Assembly: GCA_025056865.1 (NCBI GenBank)
Contig: JANWVO010000052.1
Coordinates: forward strand, 1 to 64,000
Origin: Bryobacteraceae bacterium
Lineage (GTDB): Bacteria > Acidobacteriota > Terriglobia > Bryobacterales > Bryobacteraceae
Direction: 5' to 3'
DNA: 64,000 bases
Numbering within the stretch: the first letter of the stretch is position 1; every line of letters starts with the position of its first letter. The notes under the pieces were generated by a model. The model had not been told where the DNA came from. It saw nothing but the letters and a program-made list of their open reading frames with translations, and searched no databases. Shown piece after piece: positions 4,011-23,548 of this stretch. Made by a program: the position numbers and the translations under genes.

Positions 4011-4490
4011 ATGGGGATCCTGTATACGCGACCGGAACTGCTGGCAGCGCGGCGGCGCTGGCGGGAGCAGGGCCTGACGGTTGTCTTCACCAACGGCTGT
4101 TATGACATCCTGCATCCGGGCCATGTGAGGACGCTCGAGCGCGCGCGCTCGCTGGGCGACCTGCTGGTGCTGGCGCTGAACAGCGACCCGAGCGTGCGGC
4201 GGATGAAAGGGCCGTCGCGGCCGGTGATTCCGGAGGCCGAGCGCGCGGCGCTGGCCTGCGCGCTGGAAGCGGTGGACGCGGTGACGCTGTTCGACGAGGA
4301 CACGCCGCGCGATCTGATCGCCGCGCTGCTGCCGGATGTGCTCGTCAAAGGCAGCGACTGGAGCCACTTCGTCGCCGGGCGCGAGGAAGTGGAGGCGGCC
4401 GGGGGCCGCGTGGTGCTGCTTCCGCTGGAGCCCGGCTATTCGACCACGGCCACGGTGGAGCAGATCCTCGGGCGGCGGAGCCCGCGATGA
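4011..4490 (+). CDS. hldC: D-glycero-beta-D-manno-heptose 1-phosphate adenylyltransferase (HldE C-domain type)
   Basis: A 159-residue stand-alone nucleotidyltransferase matching the C-terminal half of HldE/RfaE. The cytidylyltransferase-fold signature TNGCYDILHPGH is at residues 27-38, including the HxGH ATP-binding motif, followed by LALNSDPSVRRMKGPSRPV, KGSDW and GYSTTATVEQI. The enzyme would convert heptose 1-phosphate and ATP to ADP-heptose and pyrophosphate in the cytosol, for LPS core or S-layer glycans. Its kinase partner (RfaE1 type) is not adjacent; a PfkB kinase and a GmhA-like isomerase lie about 10 kb downstream (14754-17184). The stop overlaps the mfd start (ATGA), so the two genes are coupled. 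The symbol rests on family resemblance. Confidence 0.88.
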   Translation: MGILYTRPELLAARRRWREQGLTVVFTNGCYDILHPGHVRTLERARSLGDLLVLALNSDPSVRRMKGPSRPVIPEAERAALACALEAVDAVTLFDEDTPRDLIAALLPDVLVKGSDWSHFVAGREEVEAAGGRVVLLPLEPGYSTTATVEQILGRRSPR

Positions 4491-10207: not shown

Positions 10208-10597
10208 ATGCCCCGCAAGGCGCGCGACATTCCTCCGCCGCTGGAGCTGCGCTGCCTGGCGGCGCTGTGGAAGCTGGGCGAGGCCAACGTGCGGGCCGTC
10301 CGCGAGTTCCTTGCGCCGCGGAGGCCGCTGGCCTACACGACGGTGATGACGATGCTGGAGCGGCTGACGCGGAAGCAGTTTCTGACGAGGCGCAAGGTGG
10401 GGCGGTCTTTTGTGTACCGGCCGGTGGTGTCGCGGGACGTGATCCGCTCGCTGGCGGTGCAGGAGCTGCTGGATCTGCTGTTCGACGGCAGTCCGCAGGG
10501 GCTGATTCAGTTTTTGGGGGGCGCGCCCCCGGAGGCACCCCCTGGAGCGCCGGCGGAGGAATCGGAGGGGCGGCCGCTGGATGCGGCCCTGCTTTGA
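10208..10597 (+). CDS. BlaI/MecI/CopY family transcriptional repressor
   Basis: A 129-residue winged-helix repressor. The segment LELRCLAALWKLGEANVRAV, the YTTVMTMLERLTRKQFLTRR recognition region and the wing (GRSFVYRPVVSRD) are typical. Such proteins are usually released by a BlaR1/MecR1 membrane protease-sensor, but none is encoded beside it. It follows the YhaM-like gene by 4 bases and precedes a TPR lipoprotein. The C-terminal tail after residue about 100 is Pro/Glu/Gly-rich and unlike the dimerisation helices of BlaI. Its target may be its own operon or the downstream lipoprotein/protease pair (inference). Confidence 0.85.
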   Translation: MPRKARDIPPPLELRCLAALWKLGEANVRAVREFLAPRRPLAYTTVMTMLERLTRKQFLTRRKVGRSFVYRPVVSRDVIRSLAVQELLDLLFDGSPQGLIQFLGGAPPEAPPGAPAEESEGRPLDAALL

Positions 10598-10718
10598 CCG
10601 GCCATCGGCCCGGGTGTGGCGGGCGGGCTCGGCGGGCGGCCCCGATCCGTTATGCTGGATGCAATCCCATGCGGAAGGCGCACCCGGAAAGACCCTGTCG
10701 AGAGGAGGGAATGGGCCA

Positions 10719-13052
10719 ATGAGGATGCTGCGCAGAAGCCTGCCAGCGGCCCTGCTGGCGCTGTCGATCCTTGCGGGCTCCTGCTCGCGGGACACGGAGA
10801 AGGCCAAGCGGCGTTACGTCGACAACGGCAACCGCTATCTGCAACAGGGCAAGGTAAGGGAAGCCATCATCATGTACCGCAACGCCCTCAAGCGCGACCC
10901 GCGCTACGGAGAGGCGTGGCTGAAGCTGGGCGATGCCGAGATGCGGCGCGGCATGCCGGCGCAGGCGGTGGCGGCCTACCGGCGCGCGGTGGAGCTGTAC
11001 GCGAATCCGGAAGAGCCGGCCAGCAAGCTGGCCGACATTTTTCTGGCCGCCTATGTGCTGTCACCGAAGAAAGATCCGGCGCTGCTGAAGGAGGTGGAGG
11101 AGCTGGCGTCGGCGCTGGCGGCGAAGAATCCGAACTCCTACCAGGCGCTGCGGCTGCGGGCCTTCCTGCATCTGGCCGATCCGAACGACCGGACGCAGGA
11201 GCACCTTTTCCGTGCCATCGAGTATTTCCGGAAGGCCGACGCGGCAAAGCCGAAGCAGCCTGAGCTGCGCCTGGCGATGGTGCAGACGCTGGCGCAGACC
11301 GGGCAGTTCGATGAAGCCGAGAAGATCGCTCGGGAGATGATCAGCGACACGCCGCAGGCGACGGGGGCCTACTGGTTTCTCAGCCGGCTGTATCTGCAAC
11401 AGAACCGCCTGAAGGAAGCGGATGCGGTGGTGGACCGGCTGGTGGAGAACAACGCGTCTTCGCCAGGATTCCGCGTGGACCGCGCCGAATACCTGTTCGC
11501 GACGCAGCGCAAGGACGCGGCGCTGGCGGAGCTGGATGCGCTGGCGGCATCGCAGGCAGCCGACGCTTCGCTGCTGAAGCGGATCGGCGAGACCTACCTG
11601 CGGTTCCGCGAGCCGAAAAAGGCCGAGGAGCTGTTCATTCGGGCGATGCAGAGATTCCCGGATCAGAAGACGGAGTTCCGCCTGCGGATGATTCCCGCGC
11701 TGCTGGCGATGCAGAGGAAAGAGGACGCCATCCGCCTAGGGGAGGCGACGGTGAAAGAGGATCCGAACAGCAACGCGGCGCTGTCGATGCGGGCGTCGCT
11801 GTGGCTGAATTTCGGGACGAAGGAGCAGTTCGAGGCCGCAGTAAAGGATTTGCAGCAGCTCATCGCCAAGGAGCCGGGCAACGCGGTGATCCGCTACAAC
11901 CTGGGGCGCGCCTACCAGGCCCGCGGGGAGCTGGACGCGGCGCGGACGCAGTATGCCGAAGCCGTGAAGATCTCGCGCTATCTCACCGCCGCGCATCTGG
12001 GGCTGGGCCTTGTGGCGCTGGCCAAGGGGGATCATGGCAAGGCGGTCAGCGAGGCGGACGAGATCCTCTCCTATGATCCAACCAGCCTGTCGGCCCGGGT
12101 GCTGCGCATCAACGGCCTGCTGGCGGGAGGGAACACGAACCAGGCGCGCATCGACATCAACACCTACCTGAAGGACACGCCCGACAATGCCGACCTGCGC
12201 TACCTGCTGGCGATGACGAATTTCATGGACCGGCGCTACCAGGAGGCGGAGGCGCAGTTGCGCGCGCTACAGAAGCAGTTCCCGAACGATCTGCGGCTGC
12301 TGTTCGCCGTGGCGGAAGTGATGATGCGCACGAACCGCCAGGCGGACGCCCTGCGGACGGTGCAGGAAGTCTACCGGCAGAATCCGTCGAACCCTGCGCT
12401 GAAGCTGGCGCTGGCGACCAGCGCCATGCGCGTGAACCAGCTCGATCAGGCCGAGCAGCTTCTGCGCGAGCTGCTGGCCGCCAATGCGGAGTCGACCGAT
12501 CTGGCCATGCGCCTGGGCGACGTGCTGCGGAGGAAGGGGCAGATCCCCGCGGCGCTTGATGTGCTGAAGCAGGCCCATGCGAAGAACCCGTCTCACTCCG
12601 GACTGGCGCTCCAGCTTGCGCTGACGCATGAAGCCGCAGGAGACTGGCGCTCGGCGGTGCCGCTGTACGAGGCGATCCTGCGGCAGGATCCGAACCATCT
12701 GATCGCGCTCAACAACCTTGCCTACCGCTACGCCGACATGGGCAAGGATCTGGATACGGCGCTGACCTATGCGCAACGGGCCCAGCAGAGGGCGCCCACG
12801 AACGAGGACATCATCGACACGCTGGCGTGGGTCTACATCCGGAAGAACCTCAACGACACTGCGATCTCCCTGCTCCGCCCGCTGGTGACGAAGCAGCCGC
12901 GAAATCCCCTGTATCACTACCATCTGGGGCTGGCGCTGCTTCAGAAGGGCGACCGCACGGCGGCGCGGCAGAGCCTTCAGACGGCGCTGTCGCTGAACCC
13001 TTCGAAGGAAGACGAGCAGAAGATCCGCGAGGCGCTGGCCAAGGCGGGCTGA
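10719..13052 (+). CDS. TPR-repeat lipoprotein (PEP-CTERM system TPR type)
   Basis: An outer-envelope lipoprotein of about 777 residues made almost entirely of tetratricopeptide repeats. The N-terminus MRMLRRSLPAALLALSILAG ends in a lipobox-like AGSC. Repeats recur about every 34 residues, for example GNRYLQQGKVREAIIMYRNA, YNLGRAYQARGELDAARTQY and YEAILRQDPNHLIALNNLAY. Length and architecture resemble the large TPR lipoproteins of exosortase/PEP-CTERM loci. The next gene, an exosortase-associated CAAX-like protease, supports that link. The ATG at 10719 is chosen over an upstream in-frame start because it gives the lipoprotein signal and follows GAGGAGGGA by nine bases. A -10-like TATGCT is at 10649-10654. 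Confidence 0.85.
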   Translation: MRMLRRSLPAALLALSILAGSCSRDTEKAKRRYVDNGNRYLQQGKVREAIIMYRNALKRDPRYGEAWLKLGDAEMRRGMPAQAVAAYRRAVELYANPEEPASKLADIFLAAYVLSPKKDPALLKEVEELASALAAKNPNSYQALRLRAFLHLADPNDRTQEHLFRAIEYFRKADAAKPKQPELRLAMVQTLAQTGQFDEAEKIAREMISDTPQATGAYWFLSRLYLQQNRLKEADAVVDRLVENNASSPGFRVDRAEYLFATQRKDAALAELDALAASQAADASLLKRIGETYLRFREPKKAEELFIRAMQRFPDQKTEFRLRMIPALLAMQRKEDAIRLGEATVKEDPNSNAALSMRASLWLNFGTKEQFEAAVKDLQQLIAKEPGNAVIRYNLGRAYQARGELDAARTQYAEAVKISRYLTAAHLGLGLVALAKGDHGKAVSEADEILSYDPTSLSARVLRINGLLAGGNTNQARIDINTYLKDTPDNADLRYLLAMTNFMDRRYQEAEAQLRALQKQFPNDLRLLFAVAEVMMRTNRQADALRTVQEVYRQNPSNPALKLALATSAMRVNQLDQAEQLLRELLAANAESTDLAMRLGDVLRRKGQIPAALDVLKQAHAKNPSHSGLALQLALTHEAAGDWRSAVPLYEAILRQDPNHLIALNNLAYRYADMGKDLDTALTYAQRAQQRAPTNEDIIDTLAWVYIRKNLNDTAISLLRPLVTKQPRNPLYHYHLGLALLQKGDRTAARQSLQTALSLNPSKEDEQKIREALAKAG

Positions 13053-13057
13053 GCGGC

Positions 13058-13726
13058 ATGTCCCTGCGTCACCCGGCCGTACCCTACGCCGCGCCGTTCC
13101 TGTATTTCCTGCTCTGCCTGGCGGCGCTGCCGAAGCTGGGACTGCCGCCGCGGGCGGAGCTGTCCCTGTGGCTCGTGTCCGGGTTTGCGGTTGTATTCTG
13201 GCTGAGCCGGAGCGTGCTGGACTTCCGGCTGCGCGCTCCGCTGGCGAGCCTGGCGGCCGGCGCCGCGGTGTTCGTCCTCTGGATTGCTCCGGACCTGCTT
13301 GTGCCGGGCTGGCGCAGCCACTGGATGTTTTCCAACGCGCTGCTGGGGCGTCCGGAATCGTCCCTGTCCGCCGCGGCACTGAGCGATCCCGTGGCGCTGG
13401 CGCTGCGGGTAGCGCGCGCCGTCCTGCTGGTTCCTGTGGTGGAAGAGCTGTTCTGGCGCGGATGGCTGATGCGCTGGCTGGAACGCGAGGATTTCCGGCA
13501 GGTGCCGCTGGGCTCTTACAACGCGCGCGCCTTCTGGATCACGGCGGCGCTGTTCGCGCTGGAGCATGGCTCCTACTGGGACGTGGGCTTTCTTGCCGGC
13601 GCAGCGTACAACGCTTGGATGGTGCGCACGAAGAGCCTGGCGGACCTGATGCTGGCGCATGCGGTGACCAACGGCTGCCTCTCGGCCTACGTTCTCTGGA
13701 GCGGGCGTTTCGAGTATTGGCTGTGA
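13058..13726 (+). CDS. exosortase-associated CAAX prenyl protease-like membrane protein (CPBP)
   Basis: An integral membrane protein of 222 residues with about six hydrophobic segments. It carries the three CPBP/Rce1 motifs: EELFWR at 129-134 (EExxxR), FALEHG with H170, and HAVTNG with H201 and N205. The sequence around them (VPVVEELFWRGWLMRWL, DFRQVPLGS, DLMLAHAVTN) matches the subfamily found with exosortases rather than general CPBP proteases. It starts five bases after the TPR lipoprotein stop, so the pair is co-translated. No exosortase (EpsH/XrtA) or PEP-CTERM substrate is in the window. The catalytic role is inferred from the family. Confidence 0.85.
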   Translation: MSLRHPAVPYAAPFLYFLLCLAALPKLGLPPRAELSLWLVSGFAVVFWLSRSVLDFRLRAPLASLAAGAAVFVLWIAPDLLVPGWRSHWMFSNALLGRPESSLSAAALSDPVALALRVARAVLLVPVVEELFWRGWLMRWLEREDFRQVPLGSYNARAFWITAALFALEHGSYWDVGFLAGAAYNAWMVRTKSLADLMLAHAVTNGCLSAYVLWSGRFEYWL

Positions 13727-13776
13727 CGGCGCGGCCGCGGGCACGGCGTGTGATTTACTGAAATGTTGTACCGCTG

Positions 13777-14757
13777 ATGCCTTCCCGATACCCGCTGTTT
13801 GACCGTTCGCGCCTGAGCATCCTGCCGCTGGCCGAGCGCACGCACGATCTCCACATTGGCCACTGGATGGCGCTGGCGGATCCGGCGCCGCCGTTTGAGC
13901 ATCCGGATCTGGCGGCGGTGGCGGAGCGCTGGGCGCGGGCGCACCGCGCGGGCGCGGCGCGGATCCTGATGATGGGCGCGCACCTGATCCGGGCGGGCGT
14001 CAACCGCCACATCATCGACCTGCTGGAGCGCGGCGCGCTGTCGGTGATCGCGATGAACGGGGCGGGCATGATCCACGACTACGAACTGGCGCGGATCGGC
14101 GCCACGACGGAAAGCGTCGCCCGCTACATCCGCGAAGGACAGTTCGGGCTGTGGCGCGAGACGGGCGAGCTGAACGACTGGATCCGCGACGCGGCGTCGG
14201 CGGGCGAGGGGCTGGGCGAGCATGTGGGGCGGCGGATCTGGGAGTCCGGCTTCCCCTACCGGGACGTGAGCGTGCTGGCGGCGGCGTGGCGCTGCGGGGT
14301 GCCGGTCACCGTTCATGCGGGCATCGGCTACGACATCCTGCATGAGCATCCCAACTGCGACGGAGCGGCGCTTGGCGAGACGAGCTACCGCGATTTCCTG
14401 ATCTTCGCGCGCGTCGTCGAGGGCCTGGAGGGCGGGCTGCTCATGTCGTTCGGCTCGGCCATCATGGGGCCGGAGGTGTATCTGAAGGCGCTGGCGATGG
14501 CGCGCAACGTGGCGCATCAGCAGGGGCGGACGATCCGGCATTTCACGACGGCGGTGTTCGATCTGGTGCCCATCCGCGGGGATTTCCGCCGCGAGCTGCC
14601 GAAGACCGACCCGGGCTACTACTTCCGCCCGCACAAGACGATGCTGGTGCGCACGGTGGCCGACGGAGGCGAGAGCTTTTATTTCTGCGGCGACCACCGC
14701 GCGACGTTTCCGGCGCTGCGGGCGGCATTCCTTCGCGCTCTGGAGGAGAACGCGTGA
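13777..14757 (+). CDS. deoxyhypusine-synthase-like protein of unknown function, sugar-cluster associated
   Basis: A soluble 326-residue protein. Segments such as HLIRAGVNRHIIDLLERGAL, VIAMNGAGMIHDYELARIG and VTVHAGIGYDILHEHPN follow the order of the NAD-binding fold of deoxyhypusine synthase, but the catalytic lysine region (GWKI-like) of true DHS is not visible. Bacteria with this gene order have no eIF5A to modify, so hypusine formation is unlikely. It is the first of four overlapping genes; its stop overlaps the GTG of the PfkB kinase. That ties it to sugar-phosphate metabolism, perhaps an NAD-dependent or carbonyl-handling step. The fold call is moderate and the function is unknown. Confidence 0.6.
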   Translation: MPSRYPLFDRSRLSILPLAERTHDLHIGHWMALADPAPPFEHPDLAAVAERWARAHRAGAARILMMGAHLIRAGVNRHIIDLLERGALSVIAMNGAGMIHDYELARIGATTESVARYIREGQFGLWRETGELNDWIRDAASAGEGLGEHVGRRIWESGFPYRDVSVLAAAWRCGVPVTVHAGIGYDILHEHPNCDGAALGETSYRDFLIFARVVEGLEGGLLMSFGSAIMGPEVYLKALAMARNVAHQQGRTIRHFTTAVFDLVPIRGDFRRELPKTDPGYYFRPHKTMLVRTVADGGESFYFCGDHRATFPALRAAFLRALEENA

Positions 14758-15743
14758 CTCCGCAGGAGATTCTTTCCGCCATCCCGCGGCTGCGGGCGCT
14801 GGTGGCGGGCGACATCTGCCTGGACCGCTGGTGCCGCTATGATCCGCGGCTGACCGAGCCTTCGCGGGAGACGGGACTGGACCGCATCGCGGTGGTGGCC
14901 ACCGAGTGCACGCCGGGCGCCGGGGGGACGGTCGCGTCGAATCTGGCGGCGCTGGGCTGCGGGCGGGTGGCGGTGCTGGGCACGCTGGGCGACGACGGGC
15001 ACGGCTACGAGCTGCGCGCCGCGCTCGACCGCCGCGGCATCGACCACTCGCTGATGGTGACCGCGCCGGGGCAGACGTTCACTTACACGAAGCTGATCAA
15101 CACCTACACGGAGGTGGAGGACCTGGGGCGCGTGGACTTCGTCACGTTCCCGCCGCCGCCGGAGGTGGAACAGGAGGTGCTGCGGCGGCTGGAGGCCGCG
15201 GCTCCGCAGTTCGACGTGATCCTTGTCTCCGACCAGATGGAGACGGCCGCCGGAGCGGTGGTGACGCCGCGGATGCGGGAGCTGCTGGAGCGGCTGGCGA
15301 AACATTTTCCGGACCTTCTGATCTGGGTCGATTCGCGGATGCACATCGAGCAGTTCCGCGGCCTCGTGCTGAAGCCCAACGAACGCGAGGCGCGCGAGGC
15401 CTGCGAGCGGCTGGGGCTGGGCGGGCCGGATTACGCGGCGCTGCGCCAAGCCACGGCCTCGCCGCTGGTGATGGTGACGCACGGCGGCGACGGCGTGACG
15501 CTGGCCACGGAGGCGGGGCTCGAACACGTGCCGACGCGGCGCGTGGAGCACCCGGTGGACATCTGCGGTGCGGGCGACAGCTTTTCGGCAGGAGCGGCGC
15601 TGGCGCTGCGCGCCGGGGCGACGGCGCGGGAGGCGGCGCTGTTCGGGCATCTGGTGGCGAGCGTGACCATCATGAAGCCGGGCACGGGGACGGCATCGCC
15701 GGCGGAGGTGCTGGCCGCGGCCCGGAGGATGGAGGAAGCATGA
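14754..15743 (+). CDS. PfkB-family sugar kinase (RfaE/HldE kinase-domain-like)
   Basis: A ribokinase-fold kinase of 329 residues. The segment LVAGDICLDRWCRYDP, the glycine-rich GAGGTVASNLAALGCGRV and the C-terminal anion-hole motif CGAGDSFSAGAAL (about 272-284) mark the PfkB family, and the N-terminus most resembles the heptose-7-phosphate kinase domain of HldE (GDIMLDRY). The likely reaction is phosphorylation of a heptose or related sugar phosphate at C1. The gene starts with GTG inside the stop of the preceding gene and ends inside the ATG of the ROK kinase. The matching adenylyltransferase domain is encoded separately at 4011-4490. Confidence 0.85.
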   Translation: MTPQEILSAIPRLRALVAGDICLDRWCRYDPRLTEPSRETGLDRIAVVATECTPGAGGTVASNLAALGCGRVAVLGTLGDDGHGYELRAALDRRGIDHSLMVTAPGQTFTYTKLINTYTEVEDLGRVDFVTFPPPPEVEQEVLRRLEAAAPQFDVILVSDQMETAAGAVVTPRMRELLERLAKHFPDLLIWVDSRMHIEQFRGLVLKPNEREAREACERLGLGGPDYAALRQATASPLVMVTHGGDGVTLATEAGLEHVPTRRVEHPVDICGAGDSFSAGAALALRAGATAREAALFGHLVASVTIMKPGTGTASPAEVLAAARRMEEA

Positions 15744-16609
15744 GCATCCTGGCGCTGGACATTGGCGGCACGAAATTTTCGGCGGCGCTGTTCCGCAACG
15801 GAAGCATGACGCGGCGCGAGACGCGCCGCACGGACCGCGAGGGCGGCCGCGAGTGGATGCTGGAGCAACTGGCCGGGATCGGGCGCCGCTGGCGGGAGGA
15901 AGAGGAATTCACCGCGGTGGGCGTGGGCTTCGGCGGGCCGGTGGACTATGCGAAACAGCAGGTGGTGCTGTCGACGCACGTGGGCGGCTGGCAGGGCTTC
16001 GACCTGCCGGGCTGGCTGCGCGCCGAATTCGGCGTGCCGGTGCGGATGGACAACGACGCCAACGCCGGGGCGCTGGGCGAGGGGCTGCATGGCGCGGGCC
16101 GGGGCGCGCGGCCGCTGTTCTACATGACGCTTTCGACGGGGATCGGCGGCGGCATCCTGCTGGAAGAGGGCGTGTACCGCGGGGCGGACTCCTATGCGGG
16201 CGAGATCGGGCATCTGAACGTAAGGCCGGACGGGCCGCCGTGCCTGTGCGGGTCCAACGGCTGCCTGGAGCGCATGTGCTGCGGGCTGTGGCTGGAGCGC
16301 GACTACGGGCGCACGGCGGAGGAGCTGATGCGCGACCCGGCGTTTGTCGAGCTGTACGTGATGGACCTGGCGCGCGGACTGAAGGCCGCGATCATGCTGC
16401 TGAATCCGGCGCGCATCGTGATAGGCGGGGGCATCAGCAAGGCCGGCGAGGCGCTGTTCGGGCCGCTGCGGACGGAGCTGCGGCGGCAGATCACATCGTG
16501 GTCGCGCGCGCGGATCGACGTGGTGCCCGCGGCCCTCGGCGACGACAGCGTGCTGTGGGGGGCCTACGAGCTGGGCCTCGAGGCACAGGAGACAATGGAA
16601 GAAGAATGA
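15740..16609 (+). CDS. ROK-family sugar kinase (glucokinase-like)
   Basis: A 289-residue ROK kinase. The N-terminal phosphate-binding motif LALDIGGTKFSAALF is at 4-18 and the zinc-binding ROK signature CLCGSNGCLE is near 168-177. STGIGGGILLEEGVYRG and GEIGHLNVRPDG carry the sugar-contacting Glu and His. It would phosphorylate a free hexose or N-acyl hexosamine. The start ATG overlaps the upstream PfkB stop and its own stop overlaps the downstream GmhA-like start (ATGA at both ends), so it belongs firmly to the four-gene unit. A ROK kinase is not part of the textbook ADP-heptose route. Confidence 0.88.
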   Translation: MSILALDIGGTKFSAALFRNGSMTRRETRRTDREGGREWMLEQLAGIGRRWREEEEFTAVGVGFGGPVDYAKQQVVLSTHVGGWQGFDLPGWLRAEFGVPVRMDNDANAGALGEGLHGAGRGARPLFYMTLSTGIGGGILLEEGVYRGADSYAGEIGHLNVRPDGPPCLCGSNGCLERMCCGLWLERDYGRTAEELMRDPAFVELYVMDLARGLKAAIMLLNPARIVIGGGISKAGEALFGPLRTELRRQITSWSRARIDVVPAALGDDSVLWGAYELGLEAQETMEEE

Positions 16610-17184
16610 CGCCACTGGAATTTGCCGCCGCATATCAGAGACAGCTTGCCGAGACGCTGGCCCGGATTCCGCTGGAGCGCGTGGCCGAGGCCGCCGCCTG
16701 GCTGCGGGAGGCGCGCGACGCGGGACGGCAGATTTTCGTCTGCGGCAACGGCGGCAGCGCCGCCACGGCCTCGCACTTCGTCTGCGACGTGCTCAAGGGG
16801 TGCTCCTACGGGCGCGACAGCCGCTTCCGCATCCTCGCCCTGCATGACAATCTGCCGACGCTGACGGCCTATTCCAACGATGTGAGCTACGAGCAGGCAC
16901 TGGTGGAGACGCTGAAGAACTACGCGCGGCCGGGCGACGTGCTGATGGCGCTCAGCGGCAGCGGCAACTCGCCAAACGTGCTGCGCGCGGTGGAATGGGC
17001 CAACGCGGGCGGCCTCCGCACGATCGGCCTGACGGGCCGGGACGGCGGCAGGCTGGGCGCGTTGGTGCAGCTTCAGATCCACGTGCCCGACATGCACATG
17101 GGCCGGATCGAGGACGGGCACATGATCGTATGCCACATGCTCGCCTATTACTTCATGGAGACGGAAGGCGGGGCCGGCTGCTGA
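16606..17184 (+). CDS. SIS-domain phosphosugar isomerase (GmhA-like)
   Basis: A 192-residue SIS-fold protein. The motif CGNGGSAATASHF (about 46-58) corresponds to the phosphate-binding loop and active-site His of GmhA, and ALSGSGNSPNVLRAVEWA is the second SIS motif. GRIEDGHMIVCHMLAYYF near 166-183 aligns with the C-terminal helix that carries the catalytic His of GmhA. GmhA converts sedoheptulose 7-phosphate to D-glycero-D-manno-heptose 7-phosphate. The Glu that follows the HF pair in GmhA (HFAEEL) reads HFVCDVL here, so the substrate may differ. It is the last gene of the four-gene unit and overlaps the ROK kinase stop. Confidence 0.85.
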   Translation: MTPLEFAAAYQRQLAETLARIPLERVAEAAAWLREARDAGRQIFVCGNGGSAATASHFVCDVLKGCSYGRDSRFRILALHDNLPTLTAYSNDVSYEQALVETLKNYARPGDVLMALSGSGNSPNVLRAVEWANAGGLRTIGLTGRDGGRLGALVQLQIHVPDMHMGRIEDGHMIVCHMLAYYFMETEGGAGC

Positions 17185-19928: not shown

Positions 19929-20933
19929 TCAGAGCCAGAGGCTGCGGCGGCGGCTGCGCAGCAGGAAGATGAAAACCGGGCCGCCGACCAGCGCGGTGAC
20001 GACGCTCACGGGAAGCTCGACGCTGAGCAGCGTGCGGGCGGCGGTGTCGCACAGGGCGAGGAAGGCGCCGCCGACCAGGAAGGAGGCGGGCATGAGCACG
20101 CGGTGATCGCTGCCGATGCGGAGGCGCAACGCGTGCGGCACCACCAGCCCGACGAAGCCGATGGGCCCGGTGACGGCGGTGACGGCGGCGGCGAGCACGC
20201 TGCCGGCCAGATAGCCTCCAAGGAGCAGCCGCTGCGGCGAGGCCCCGCGGGCCGCGGCCCACTCTTCGCCCACCGCCATCAGGTTCCACTGCCGCGCGGT
20301 AGCGCAGGCGGCAACGGAAACCGGGAGCACGATGAGCGCCAGCCCGGCGAGGGTGGGCGCGGGGACGGGGTCGATGTTGCCCATCAGCCAGTGCACGATG
20401 GCGAAGCTCTGCCCGACGGTGGCGAGGTTGTGCAGCAGCATGATGAGCGAAGAGGCGATGCTGTTGATGGCGACGCCAGCCAGCAGCAGCGTGAACGAAG
20501 AGACGCGGCGGCCCTCGGCGGCGACGCTGACGACGACGACGAGCACGGCCAGGGCGCCGAGGGCGGCGCCCAGCCAGAGCGCCGGCAGCCCCCAGACGGT
20601 GTGCAGGCCGAGCACGATCATGAGCACCGCGCCGAGGCTGGCGCCGCTCGAGACGCCGAGCGTGAAGGGCGAAGCCAGCGGATCCCGCAGCAGGGCCTGG
20701 AACAGCACGCCGGCCAGGGCGAGCGCGCCGCCGCTGAGCATGGCAAGCAGGGTGCGCGGCCAGCGGACGCCGAAAAACATCTGGGCGTCCGGGAACTCGC
20801 CGCGCCAGGCCTTCAGTAGATCGATCCGGACGGGGCCAGCCAGCGGCGTGACGAGCATTACGGCGAGGGCCAGCAGCGCCGCCGCGGCGAGGATGCGCGC
20901 GGCGCGGCCCGGAGTGAGCGGCTTAGTCCCCAT
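19929..20933 (-). CDS. FecCD-family ABC permease (BtuC-like, corrinoid or Fe-siderophore)
   Basis: A polytopic permease of 334 residues, normal length for BtuC/FhuB-type proteins with ten helices. Conserved family blocks include VRWPRTLLAMLSGGALALAG, FQALLRDPLASPFTLGVSSG, GPIGFVGLVVPH and LVGGAFLALCDTAARTL. It moves the ligand handed over by a periplasmic binding protein. Its start lies 11 bases inside the ATPase gene upstream, and the set BtuF-like, BtuD-like, BtuC-like is contiguous. The neighbouring CobD-like and CobQ-like genes favour a corrinoid over a siderophore as cargo (inference from context). Confidence 0.9.
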   Translation of the reverse strand: MGTKPLTPGRAARILAAAALLALAVMLVTPLAGPVRIDLLKAWRGEFPDAQMFFGVRWPRTLLAMLSGGALALAGVLFQALLRDPLASPFTLGVSSGASLGAVLMIVLGLHTVWGLPALWLGAALGALAVLVVVVSVAAEGRRVSSFTLLLAGVAINSIASSLIMLLHNLATVGQSFAIVHWLMGNIDPVPAPTLAGLALIVLPVSVAACATARQWNLMAVGEEWAAARGASPQRLLLGGYLAGSVLAAAVTAVTGPIGFVGLVVPHALRLRIGSDHRVLMPASFLVGGAFLALCDTAARTLLSVELPVSVVTALVGGPVFIFLLRSRRRSLWL

Positions 20934-21693
20934 AGGCGATCCAGGCGCCTCCTCCGCTGCGGCGGAGCCACTCGGCGTTGACGCCGAAGACCTCCCGGAT
21001 GCGCTCGGCCGAGAGCGCGTCGCAGGGGGTGGCGTCGGCGACGACGCGGCCGGCGCGCAGCGCGATGACGCGGTCCGAGTAGGACGCCGCGAGGTTCACG
21101 TCGTGCGTCACGGCGATGACCAGCAGGCCGCCGCGCGCCAGTTGGCGCAGCAGGGAGTAGATCATGAGCTGGTGGTGGAGGTCGAGGAAGGCGGCGGGCT
21201 CGTCGAGCAGGAGCGCCCGCGGCCGCTGGGCGAGGGCCGCAGCCAGCATCACGCGCTGGCGCTCGCCGCCGCTGAGGGAGCGGAAGTCGCGCCCGGCGAG
21301 GGCGAGCGTGTCGGTGGCCTGCATGGCTTCGCGCGCGGCCTGCCAGTCCTCGTCGCTGTCGAAAAAGCCGCCTGCGTAAGGGGTGCGGCCCATGAGGACC
21401 ACCTCGTCGGCGGTGAAGGGGAAGTCGAAGCGCAGCGTCTGCGGCACGAAGGCGACCTTGCGGGCGAATTCGCGGCGGCGCCAGTCGAGCACGGGGCGCC
21501 CGTCCAGCAGGCAGCGGCCGTCGAAGCCGCGGCGCAGTCCGGCCATGATGTTCAGCAGGGTGGACTTCCCTGCCCCGTTGGGGCCGATGAGGGTTACCAG
21601 TTCAGGCCGCGCGAACTCGAGGGTGACATCCTGGAGGACGGCGGCTCCGTCGAAGCGCATGCCGACGCGCTCGAGCTGGTAGCGGACGCTCAT
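20923..21693 (-). CDS. ABC ATPase (BtuD/FepC-like)
   Basis: A 256-residue ATPase of the vitamin B12/siderophore import class. Walker A GPNGAGKST is at 37-45, the signature SLSGGERQRVMLAAAL and Walker B ALLLDEPAAFLD follow, with the H-loop VIAVTHDVNLA. It overlaps the binding-protein gene upstream by four bases (ATGA) and the permease downstream by 11, so the three subunits are translationally coupled. The last 30 residues (RIREVFGVNAEWLRRSGGGA) resemble the C-terminal extension of siderophore and B12 ATPases. Confidence 0.92.
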   Translation of the reverse strand: MSVRYQLERVGMRFDGAAVLQDVTLEFARPELVTLIGPNGAGKSTLLNIMAGLRRGFDGRCLLDGRPVLDWRRREFARKVAFVPQTLRFDFPFTADEVVLMGRTPYAGGFFDSDEDWQAAREAMQATDTLALAGRDFRSLSGGERQRVMLAAALAQRPRALLLDEPAAFLDLHHQLMIYSLLRQLARGGLLVIAVTHDVNLAASYSDRVIALRAGRVVADATPCDALSAERIREVFGVNAEWLRRSGGGAWIAYGD

Positions 21694-22541
21694 GGCAGCC
21701 GCACTCCGTGGATCGCTTCCAGAAACAGCTTCGCCGCTTCGCCGACCCGCGGCCCGGGCCGGATGAAGACTTCCGAAGCGACCTGCTTCACGGCGCGCTG
21801 TTGCACGGCCTTCAGCATCGGATAGGAGGACCAGAGGCGCAGCAGTTCGGCCTGGCTCTCGATCGGTTTTCCTTCATGGTGCGCGAAGTCGCCCATGTCG
21901 AGGATCACATCGGGGTCGGCGGCGAGGATCTGTTCCATCGACACGCGCGGATAGGCGATGGGGGACGAAGCCAGCACGTTTTCACCGCCGGCGAGGCGGA
22001 TGAGCTCGTCGAGGAAGTTGCCCGGGCCCGCGCCCACCATGCCCTGCAACGTGCCCGGGGAACGGCCGACGAGGAACAGCACGCGGCGCCGCGGCAACGC
22101 GGCGGCGCGCCGGCGCACGGCGGACAGGTCGGCCTCGATGCGCGCGGCGAGCGCTTGGGCCTGCGCCGCGGCTCCGGCCATGCGGCCGATGGCGCGGATG
22201 GAAGCGAGGATTTCCGGGATCGTGTCCTGCGGCACCTCTTCAGCGCGCAGGCCGAGCCGCCGCAGCTTTTCCGCAAGCTGCACGGGATTGCGGACAACGA
22301 GCACGAGATCCGGCTTCAGCGCGAGGATGCGCTCGAAGTTCGGCTCGAGAAACGTGCCGATTTTCGGCTTCGCGGCGGCTTCGGGCGGGTATCGGCAGAA
22401 TTCGGTGACGCCGGCGACGCGCGGCCCGAGGCCGAGGGCGAACAGCGTCTCGGTGAGCGAGGGAGCCGTGGAGACGATGCGCTGCGGCGGCGCGGCCCAT
22501 GCCGCGGCTGAAGCCAGCAGGAGCAGGGTCAGCGCGCGCAA
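21690..22541 (-). CDS. periplasmic corrinoid-binding protein (BtuF-like)
   Basis: A class III substrate-binding protein of 283 residues from a TTG start. The open frame reaches further upstream, but only from the TTG does one obtain a clean signal peptide (LRALTLLLLASAAAWA) followed at once by the BtuF-type opening RIVSTAPSLTETLFALGLG and VTEFCRYP. GGGAG lies five bases before that TTG. The gene starts 13 bases inside the upstream CobD-like gene. Later segments ILALKPDLVL and ILAADPDVIL are the paired family repeats. The best reading is B12 or cobinamide capture for the downstream permease and ATPase; haem or siderophore binding is the alternative. Confidence 0.88.
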   Translation of the reverse strand: MRALTLLLLASAAAWAAPPQRIVSTAPSLTETLFALGLGPRVAGVTEFCRYPPEAAAKPKIGTFLEPNFERILALKPDLVLVVRNPVQLAEKLRRLGLRAEEVPQDTIPEILASIRAIGRMAGAAAQAQALAARIEADLSAVRRRAAALPRRRVLFLVGRSPGTLQGMVGAGPGNFLDELIRLAGGENVLASSPIAYPRVSMEQILAADPDVILDMGDFAHHEGKPIESQAELLRLWSSYPMLKAVQQRAVKQVASEVFIRPGPRVGEAAKLFLEAIHGVRLP

Positions 22542-23548
22542 AACAGCTCCCGCCCCGTTTCGACGAACCGCTCGTTTTCGGCCCGGGTGCGCACGGCGAA
22601 GCGGATGGCTTCGCCGTCGACGCCGGGCAGCCGGGAGCAGTTCCGCAGCAGGATCTTGCGTTCGAGGAACCACTCGCACACCTCGGCGGCGGGCCTGTCG
22701 GTGTAGGCCAGCAGGAAGTTGGCCTCGCCGGGCAGGACGCGCAGGCCGTTCCAGGTGGAGAGCATCTCGAGCAGCCACTGGCGCTCCTGTTCGACGACCT
22801 CCCGGGTGCGGCGCGCGTGTTCCGTGTCGCGCACCGCGGCGAGGGCCGCCGCTTCGGCCAGCGTGCCCACCTGCCAGGGCTCGCGCTTGCGGTTAAGGCG
22901 CCGCATCCACTCCCGCGAGCCGACCAGCGCGCCGACGCGCAGCCCGGGCAGGGCGTAGAACTTCGACAGCGAGCGGAGCACGAGCAGATTGGGGTGATCC
23001 AGCGTCCAGCGCACGGCCGGCTCGAGCCGCGTGAATTCGATGAAGCTTTCGTCGATCAGCACCGGCCCTTCGCGGCTGGCGATGGCGCGCTTAACGATTT
23101 CCGGCGGCAGGGCGAGGCCGGTCGGGTTGCCCGGCTGGCTGAGCACGAGCAGGCCGCGCTGCGGCCATTTTTCCGGCTCGTCGGCGCGCACGCGCAATGC
23201 GTGGGGAAAGGCGCGGTAGAACTCCGACCAGACGGGCACGGCCAGTGCCGCGGGGCCGCTCCAGCCCGCGCGCGCCAGGAAGTGCACCAGCTCGGTGGCT
23301 CCGCCGCCGACCATCACCTGGCCGGGCTCGACGCCCCATGCGTCGGCCAGAGCCTGCTCGAGCTCGCCCGGAATCTGGTCGGGATAGAGAGCGATGCGGT
23401 CCAGAGCCTCTTCGATTGCAGGACGGACTGCGGGCGAGGGCCCGAGCGGATTGATGCTGGCGCTCAGGTCGAGGATCTCGCGCCAGTCCCAGCCGCGCTC
23501 CCTGGCAACGGCCAACACGTTCCCACCATGCGTGACGATCAATGTCAT
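22529..23548 (-). CDS. cobD: CobD-like L-threonine-O-3-phosphate decarboxylase (class I/II PLP aminotransferase fold)
   Basis: A PLP enzyme of about 339 residues of the HisC/CobD group. The opening VTHGGNVLAVARERGWDW with DLSASINPLGPSPAV is characteristic of CobD rather than HisC (HGGN and SxNxNPLGP). The PLP lysine is in LRSLSKFYALPGLRVG. CobD makes (R)-1-amino-2-propanol phosphate for the lower ligand arm of cobalamin. Placement between a corrinoid importer and a CobQ-like gene supports this. The ATG at 23548 sits directly after GGGGAGG, too close for ideal spacing; a TTG two codons later has better spacing, and a longer N-terminus (to 23584) is open. Confidence 0.82.
   Translation of the reverse strand: MTLIVTHGGNVLAVARERGWDWREILDLSASINPLGPSPAVRPAIEEALDRIALYPDQIPGELEQALADAWGVEPGQVMVGGGATELVHFLARAGWSGPAALAVPVWSEFYRAFPHALRVRADEPEKWPQRGLLVLSQPGNPTGLALPPEIVKRAIASREGPVLIDESFIEFTRLEPAVRWTLDHPNLLVLRSLSKFYALPGLRVGALVGSREWMRRLNRKREPWQVGTLAEAAALAAVRDTEHARRTREVVEQERQWLLEMLSTWNGLRVLPGEANFLLAYTDRPAAEVCEWFLERKILLRNCSRLPGVDGEAIRFAVRTRAENERFVETGRELFCAR

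Follow-up and report, generated by a model that had tools for sequence, protein, structure and literature searches.

The stretch of DNA analysed here, which we call the window, comprises the first 64,000 nucleotides of contig JANWVO010000052.1 of a Bryobacteraceae bacterium (assembly GCA_025056865.1), and it carries on its plus strand a run of four genes (13777-17184) led by a member of the GSU2086 protein family. Each junction between these genes is a 4-bp overlap, reading GTGA, ATGA and ATGA in turn, so that the coordinates and stop-to-start overlaps given in a preliminary description of this DNA are borne out. The four genes of the operon are:

13777..14757, plus strand: gene 1, GSU2086-family protein with the deoxyhypusine synthase (DHS)/ornithine cyclodeaminase fold, clade II type B; 326 amino acids (aa), ATG start; placed by NCBIfam model NF052581 (376.7 bits), an AlphaFold2 (AF2) model and a tree
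14754..15743, plus strand: gene 2, PfkB sugar kinase, a divergent relative of HldA and the HldE kinase domain; 329 aa, GTG start; PF00294, 107 bits
15740..16609, plus strand: gene 3, ROK-family sugar kinase, probably a lineage-specific addition to the operon; 289 aa, ATG start; PF00480, 187 bits
16606..17184, plus strand: gene 4, GmhA-like SIS isomerase in which two zinc ligands are changed (E to D, Q to E); 192 aa, ATG start; TIGR00441, 109.8 bits

Family and fold of the GSU2086 protein

Gene 1 passes the curated cut-off (250 bits) of the NCBIfam 'GSU2086 family' NF052581, a family named without a function. In the literature searched, the name GSU2086 turns up in one paper. The preliminary description had called its product deoxyhypusine-synthase-like, and we find that this is right for the fold only: the Pfam deoxyhypusine synthase model gives a trace match (E 0.0077, 16 bits, below the gathering score of 27), and the nearest relatives in sequence are the ornithine cyclodeaminases (ArgZ, E 2.5e-5 by hmmsearch). 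The AF2 model, built from 53 natural sequences with a mean predicted local distance difference test (pLDDT) score of 94.8, aligns in structure with the ornithine cyclodeaminase domain of AgrE (Z 19.4) and with deoxyhypusine synthase 7cmc (Z 18.8, 251 residues aligned). The cyclodeaminase family model TIGR00300 has no match in the window protein, and a paralogue reaches 19 bits against a cut-off of 411; a TIGR00300 ornithine cyclodeaminase of 535 aa with a longer N-terminal region is found at L005:8533-10140 (G000 contig C29).

A tree of 75 GSU2086 sequences separates two clades. Clade I holds group A, which lies beside uvrA and mtnA in Acidobacteriota, together with the gmhA-linked copies of Desulfobacterota; clade II holds group B, the type found in the window, and group C. 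The window's own genome encodes one copy each of groups A and B. The group A paralogue (L004:8426-9385, G000 contig C50, 406 bits) has uvrA on one side and a CAAX protease gene on the other; mtnA, the gene for methylthioribose-1-phosphate isomerase, comes next, and the order uvrA/GSU2086/CAAX/mtnA is kept in several relatives. Group C (L074, L075, L076) has a long branch and an inserted loop, and at L076 its gene adjoins hldD on the opposite strand. Invariant residues in all groups include H69, H100, D101, E103, E112, H180, D186, D206, K237, N244, D262 and R284; K287 is invariant in groups B and C.

Given the shared fold, it could be proposed that the GSU2086 protein is a polyamine enzyme of the deoxyhypusine or homospermidine synthase type that has come to lie in a sugar operon by chance. 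K287 does fall near the catalytic lysine of deoxyhypusine synthase (SWGK), one residue off in the hhalign alignment, but it is not kept in group A. The window's genome also encodes a separate deoxyhypusine synthase homologue over the Pfam cut-off, the archaea in our locus set have a canonical DHS as well as a GSU2086 protein, and the consistent partners of the family are sugar-phosphate enzymes, all of which makes a polyamine role very improbable. A literature search for work joining heptose with deoxyhypusine synthase gave no match.

Conservation of the gene order

In all 25 loci compared from the window's taxonomic order, the GSU2086 and PfkB genes lie side by side on one strand, as a rule with an overlap or almost no gap between them, and in most of these loci a ROK gene, an isomerase gene or both follow the pair. 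Within the window's family the full series GSU2086-PfkB-ROK-SIS is found repeatedly, its genes overlapping or almost in contact, some members having no isomerase or no ROK gene at that place. The preliminary description had suggested looking for the four-gene order in related genomes, and GSU2086-PfkB-(ROK)-SIS is indeed kept across the taxonomic order. The operon is a conserved unit, neither a chance arrangement nor one unique to the window. Its third gene was correctly identified as a ROK kinase (the PF00480 match is over the gathering score), and the nearest solved structure is the glucokinase 3vov. Only one family has a ROK gene in the operon; in the sister family (f3) the order is GSU2086-PfkB-SIS, and we regard the ROK protein as probably an accessory, lineage-specific kinase.

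To look beyond these relatives, GTDB genomes were scanned across phyla; the resulting 80 loci span at least ten phyla and include archaea (Methanoperedens). A neighbour was counted if it lay no more than 3.5 kb away on the same strand; some contigs are short, and 49 loci have full flanks. A kinase lies beside the GSU2086 gene in 61 of the 80 loci (39 of the 49 with full flanks), an isomerase is near it in 30/80, an HldC-like nucleotidyltransferase in 16/80 and GmhB in 3/80. Nitrospirota, archaeal, Elusimicrobiota and some deltaproteobacterial loci carry nucleotidyltransferase-kinase fusions whose domain order is opposite to that of HldE; an HldC-like nucleotidyltransferase is joined to an HldA-like kinase in this way at L138:11468-13009, L113:8436-9971 and L149:7844-9400. 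Transketolase-like genes, recognised from their sequence and not by a family search, occur near nine loci. The deeper clade I also has an isomerase gene beside it: in the Desulfobacterota phylum 14 of 18 loci show a GmhA gene that keeps all its ligands, and in Acidobacteriota the neighbour is MtnA. In those 14 loci (L202-L210, L212-L214, L218 and L219) gmhA, with its canonical ligands, is directly upstream of GSU2086, and in five of them the next gene resembles hemC, as recognised by eye.

The isomerase and the kinase differ from the canonical ADP-heptose enzymes

Gene 4 is SIS_2/GmhA-like and so belongs to the type of isomerase that the preliminary description had named, yet it scores below the TIGR00441 cut-off of 209 and differs at the active site. 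The zinc ligands of GmhA (H64, E68, Q175 and H183) are described as fully conserved among orthologues, and their mutation lowers activity (PMC5705639). In our residue comparison the window's isomerase keeps H64 and H183 and has aspartate in place of E68 and glutamate in place of Q175. The other operon-type isomerases compared have the same two changes, except at L089 and L215, where E and Q are retained; the GmhA proteins encoded beside clade I GSU2086 genes in Desulfobacterota retain E68 and Q175.

The kinase, too, is divergent. Its best NCBIfam match is TIGR02198 (rfaE domain I), as a resemblance to the N-terminal domain of HldE would lead one to expect, but at 124.2 bits it falls far below the cut-off of 345. 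A near-canonical HldA is encoded elsewhere in the same genome (contig C34, 337 bits against that cut-off) and is 36% identical to the window kinase, which is therefore a second, divergent copy. The window also contains a further gene of the heptose type, noticed in the preliminary description and confirmed here by a score close to its family cut-off:

4011..4490, plus strand: HldC-type heptose-1-phosphate adenylyltransferase, 9.3 kb upstream of the operon and adjoining mfd; TIGR02199, 176.7 bits, cut-off 181.5

This gene occupies the same position in two congeners (L059 and L060). A canonical heptose kinase and nucleotidyltransferase are thus present beside the divergent set of the operon. With a near-canonical HldA in the genome, the HldC at 4011 may serve that HldA route, and whereas the preliminary description had it feed the operon, it might serve either route or both.

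These observations bear on the simplest interpretation of the operon, namely ordinary ADP-heptose synthesis, in which a diverged GmhA and HldA would make D-glycero-D-manno-heptose precursors for the HldC at 4011 and the GSU2086 protein would be accessory or regulatory. The best family matches are, after all, GmhA and HldA/HldE, the window's HldC is near-canonical, and a GmhB-like protein is encoded elsewhere in the genome (contig C15, L046:5786-6343, minus strand, 117 bits, cut-off 150). Against this stand two of the four zinc ligands, which differ here and are kept by the GmhA neighbours of clade I; the kinase, far under its cut-off in a genome with a near-canonical HldA elsewhere; and the GSU2086 protein itself, the constant member of the unit with a well-formed enzyme fold and invariant polar residues. 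We consider ordinary ADP-heptose synthesis unlikely.

Phosphatase and HldD

The preliminary description had noted that both a GmhB phosphatase and HldD are missing. For the phosphatase this needs qualification, as relatives normally have a HAD phosphatase gene in the operon. Across the 80 loci a HAD-family gene is near GSU2086 in 41, ending no more than 60 bp from the match in 30 of them. Among relatives of the window the HAD profile matches in 20 loci, the gene lying immediately 5' of the operon. This phosphatase is not of the GmhB subfamily. At L056 the order is TPR-CAAX-HAD-GSU2086-PfkB-ROK-SIS (TPR, tetratricopeptide repeat), and the operon of the window resembles this arrangement with the HAD gene taken out, a short gap being in its place:

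13727..13776, plus strand: gap between the CAAX gene and the GSU2086 gene, the site of the HAD phosphatase gene in relatives (e.g. L056) as found with the HAD profile

The HAD gene is absent from the window and from congeners L059 and L060, the window's genus being the only one among those compared without it at this place, and no operon-type HAD gene was found elsewhere in the 28% of the window's genome that was read. An upstream cluster of 56 loci that could have been read as GmhA turned out to be a mixture of GmhA and HAD genes, and that assignment was ruled out.

For HldD the absence holds genome-wide: no match over the family cut-off is found in the window's genome, and such matches are present in 5 of 61 relatives. 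The window's best HldD-like match, far under the HldD cut-off, is a nucleoside diphosphate (NDP)-sugar epimerase/dehydratase on the minus strand at 349-1320 (GalE-like, 189 bits). D,D-heptose can be made without the HldD step, and the absence of HldD would be compatible with ordinary ADP-heptose synthesis if the D,D form were used. We also considered the GSU2086 protein as a general replacement for HldD and rejected this, since HldD and the GSU2086-PfkB pair occur together in three of the 61 relatives; the protein is not simply an HldD stand-in.

A proposed parallel sugar-phosphate pathway

The two changed zinc ligands, the low kinase score, the separate HldA and the lack of HldD together argue that this is not plain ADP-heptose synthesis. 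We therefore favour, with a probability of roughly 45%, a conserved sugar-phosphate pathway that is parallel to but distinct from the canonical ADP-heptose route and in which the GSU2086 protein acts as a hidden-redox sugar-phosphate isomerase or epimerase. The preliminary description had proposed a variant route to an activated heptose or related sugar; the conserved unit does resemble ADP-heptose synthesis, while its isomerase ligands, its kinase score and the separate HldA depart from it, and the route may lead to a different activated sugar.

Our suggestion for the GSU2086 protein draws on its fold and its company. In deoxyhypusine synthase and ornithine cyclodeaminase the substrate is oxidised, rearranged and re-reduced on a bound cofactor, a hidden redox cycle. 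A protein of this fold encoded beside aldose-ketose sugar-phosphate isomerases (GmhA or GmhA-like proteins for clade I of Desulfobacterota and for group B, MtnA for group A) could, at a guess, be a redox-neutral epimerase or isomerase. The reactions, substrates, order of steps and cofactor of the following route are put forward in this spirit. The starting ketose phosphate would most likely be sedoheptulose 7-phosphate or an isomer of it. The GSU2086 protein would rearrange it through a transient oxidation by a nicotinamide-type cofactor that stays tightly bound, in an epimerisation or isomerisation without net redox change; the variant GmhA-like enzyme would interconvert ketose and aldose; and the HldA-like kinase would make a bisphosphate. 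A HAD phosphatase, encoded in the operon in relatives and possibly elsewhere in the window's genus, where a GmhB-like protein may stand in, would take off one phosphate, and an HldC-type enzyme would then activate the sugar.

In favour of such a pathway are the conserved order with its 4-bp overlaps, the partner genes across phyla with their reversed fusions, the isomerase neighbours of clade I and the similar electrode-growth scores of the three G. sulfurreducens mutants. Several observations weigh against this parallel pathway. An isomerase is adjacent in only 23 of the 49 full-flank loci, and in several loci both the kinase and the isomerase are missing, so the GSU2086 protein may act more widely. 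The clade I partners differ, being intact GmhA or MtnA, so more than one sugar may serve as substrate. The coexistence of HldD and the GSU2086-PfkB pair in 3/61 relatives counts here as well, and canonical GmhA and HAD genes were sought in 28% of the window's genome.

A possible nickel-pincer cofactor

TIGR00300, the family nearest to GSU2086, is named nickel-pincer nucleotide-dependent by NCBIfam, and a crystal complex of AgrE contains NAD+ (6lrg title), which raises the question of the cofactor. If the GSU2086 protein used the nickel-pincer cofactor, its genomes should encode the synthesis of that cofactor. The window's genome has the synthesis genes LarC (223 bits) and LarE (307 bits), but nearly all relatives of the window carry LarC, whether or not they have GSU2086, and the gene is uninformative there. 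We therefore turned to two other phyla, that of a Planctomycetota genome and that of a Desulfarculus genome (90% completeness requested, no completeness values reported).

Of the 148 genomes in the Planctomycetota panel, 82 have a GSU2086 match over the cut-off, as do 117 of the 197 in the Desulfobacterota-phylum panel. In the Planctomycetota panel, LarC is present in 81 of 84 GSU2086-positive genomes (two split-frame copies counted in) against 36 of 64 negative ones (Fisher p 2.6e-9, ignoring kinship); in the latter, it is present in 111/117 against 63/80 (p 0.0011, likewise ignoring kinship; one of the six LarC-negative positives was inferred from numbering). The odds ratios are 21 and 5, with a combined Mantel-Haenszel value of 9.4 not corrected for phylogeny. 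In the cross-phylum set 43 of 50 GSU2086-positive genomes have LarC, and LarE, itself common, is over the cut-off in nine of ten LarC-negative, GSU2086-positive genomes tested. LarC thus co-occurs with the GSU2086 family, an association that we take as suggestive only.

This co-occurrence makes a nickel-pincer sugar enzyme a testable, unproven proposal. In its full form, GSU2086 would be a nickel-pincer-nucleotide family outside LarA, working as a hidden-redox sugar-phosphate epimerase/isomerase that here supplies the precursor of an activated heptose stereoisomer not recognised so far, a proposal which we regard as quite doubtful. Literature searches pairing the nickel-pincer nucleotide with ornithine cyclodeaminase or with heptose gave no match. 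Alternatively, the protein could depend on nicotinamide adenine dinucleotide (NAD), as DHS does, and use no nickel, the LarC link coming from common descent or being a by-product of other enzymes that use the nickel-pincer cofactor. The NAD+ in the AgrE complex, the near-universality of LarC in the window's relatives, and the nine GSU2086-positive panel genomes and 7/50 of the cross-phylum set with no LarC match all point this way; the association in each of two phyla separately, the LarE genes in genomes scored as LarC-negative and the NCBIfam name of the nearest family speak against it. We tentatively place NAD dependence somewhat short of even odds; it concerns the cofactor alone and is compatible with the parallel pathway.

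Surroundings of the operon

Directly 5' of the operon (10581-13726) lie a PrsT-like TPR gene and then a PEP-CTERM CAAX protease gene, an arrangement also found in the relative at L056:

10581..13052, plus strand: PrsT-like TPR protein of PEP-CTERM systems; TIGR02917, 295 bits, cut-off 312
13058..13726, plus strand: PEP-CTERM-associated CAAX protease; TIGR03008, 139 bits, cut-off 81; start codon picked by eye

Downstream, on the minus strand at 19929-22778, is an ATP-binding cassette (ABC) transporter set (permease, ATPase and binding protein) of the vitamin B12, heme or siderophore type.

Significance

The interest of this locus rests on the GSU2086 family and the residue swap of the isomerase, not on the operon alone. 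If the parallel pathway is real, a widespread family with no assigned reaction, found in archaea too, gains a pathway and a chemistry that can be tested, and bacteria most of which have no HldD prove to have a second pathway of the heptose type. The association with LarC may help to show which enzymes besides LarA use the nickel-pincer cofactor, and the swap in the GmhA-like protein provides a simple annotation rule that separates two isomerases.

Comparison with known systems

Deoxyhypusine synthase has the same fold as the GSU2086 protein, but the two are 12-14% identical and the catalytic SWGK motif is not kept as such. The ornithine cyclodeaminase domain (TIGR00300; AgrE/ArgZ) is nearest in sequence and shares the fold and an HDxE...G motif; identity by structure is about 15%, the second half aligns poorly, and the gene context of GSU2086 is one of sugars, not amino acids.

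The ADP-heptose pathway (GmhA, HldE or HldA/HldC, GmhB and HldD) has an equal number of steps and, like the proposed route, combines a SIS isomerase, a PfkB kinase, a HAD phosphatase (in relatives of the window) and an HldC-type nucleotidyltransferase. The differences are as follows: the operon isomerase does not have two of the GmhA zinc ligands, the kinase is far below the HldA cut-off, the phosphatase is outside the GmhB subfamily, and there is no HldD over the cut-off. The GSU2086 protein and, here, the ROK kinase are additions, and the fusions found elsewhere reverse the domain order of HldE.

The closest parallel in gene context is the Geobacter sulfurreducens operon GSU2085 hldE - GSU2086 - GSU2087 gmhA (PMC5585712), where a GSU2086 member likewise stands between a heptose kinase/nucleotidyltransferase gene and a GmhA-like gene. 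That operon has a single HldE-annotated protein, not a separate PfkB kinase, and no ROK gene, and the clade of its GSU2086 protein is inferred from similar architectures. Mutants in hldE, GSU2086 and gmhA have similar scores for growth on electrodes, -3.1, -3.2 and -3.7 (PMC5585712).

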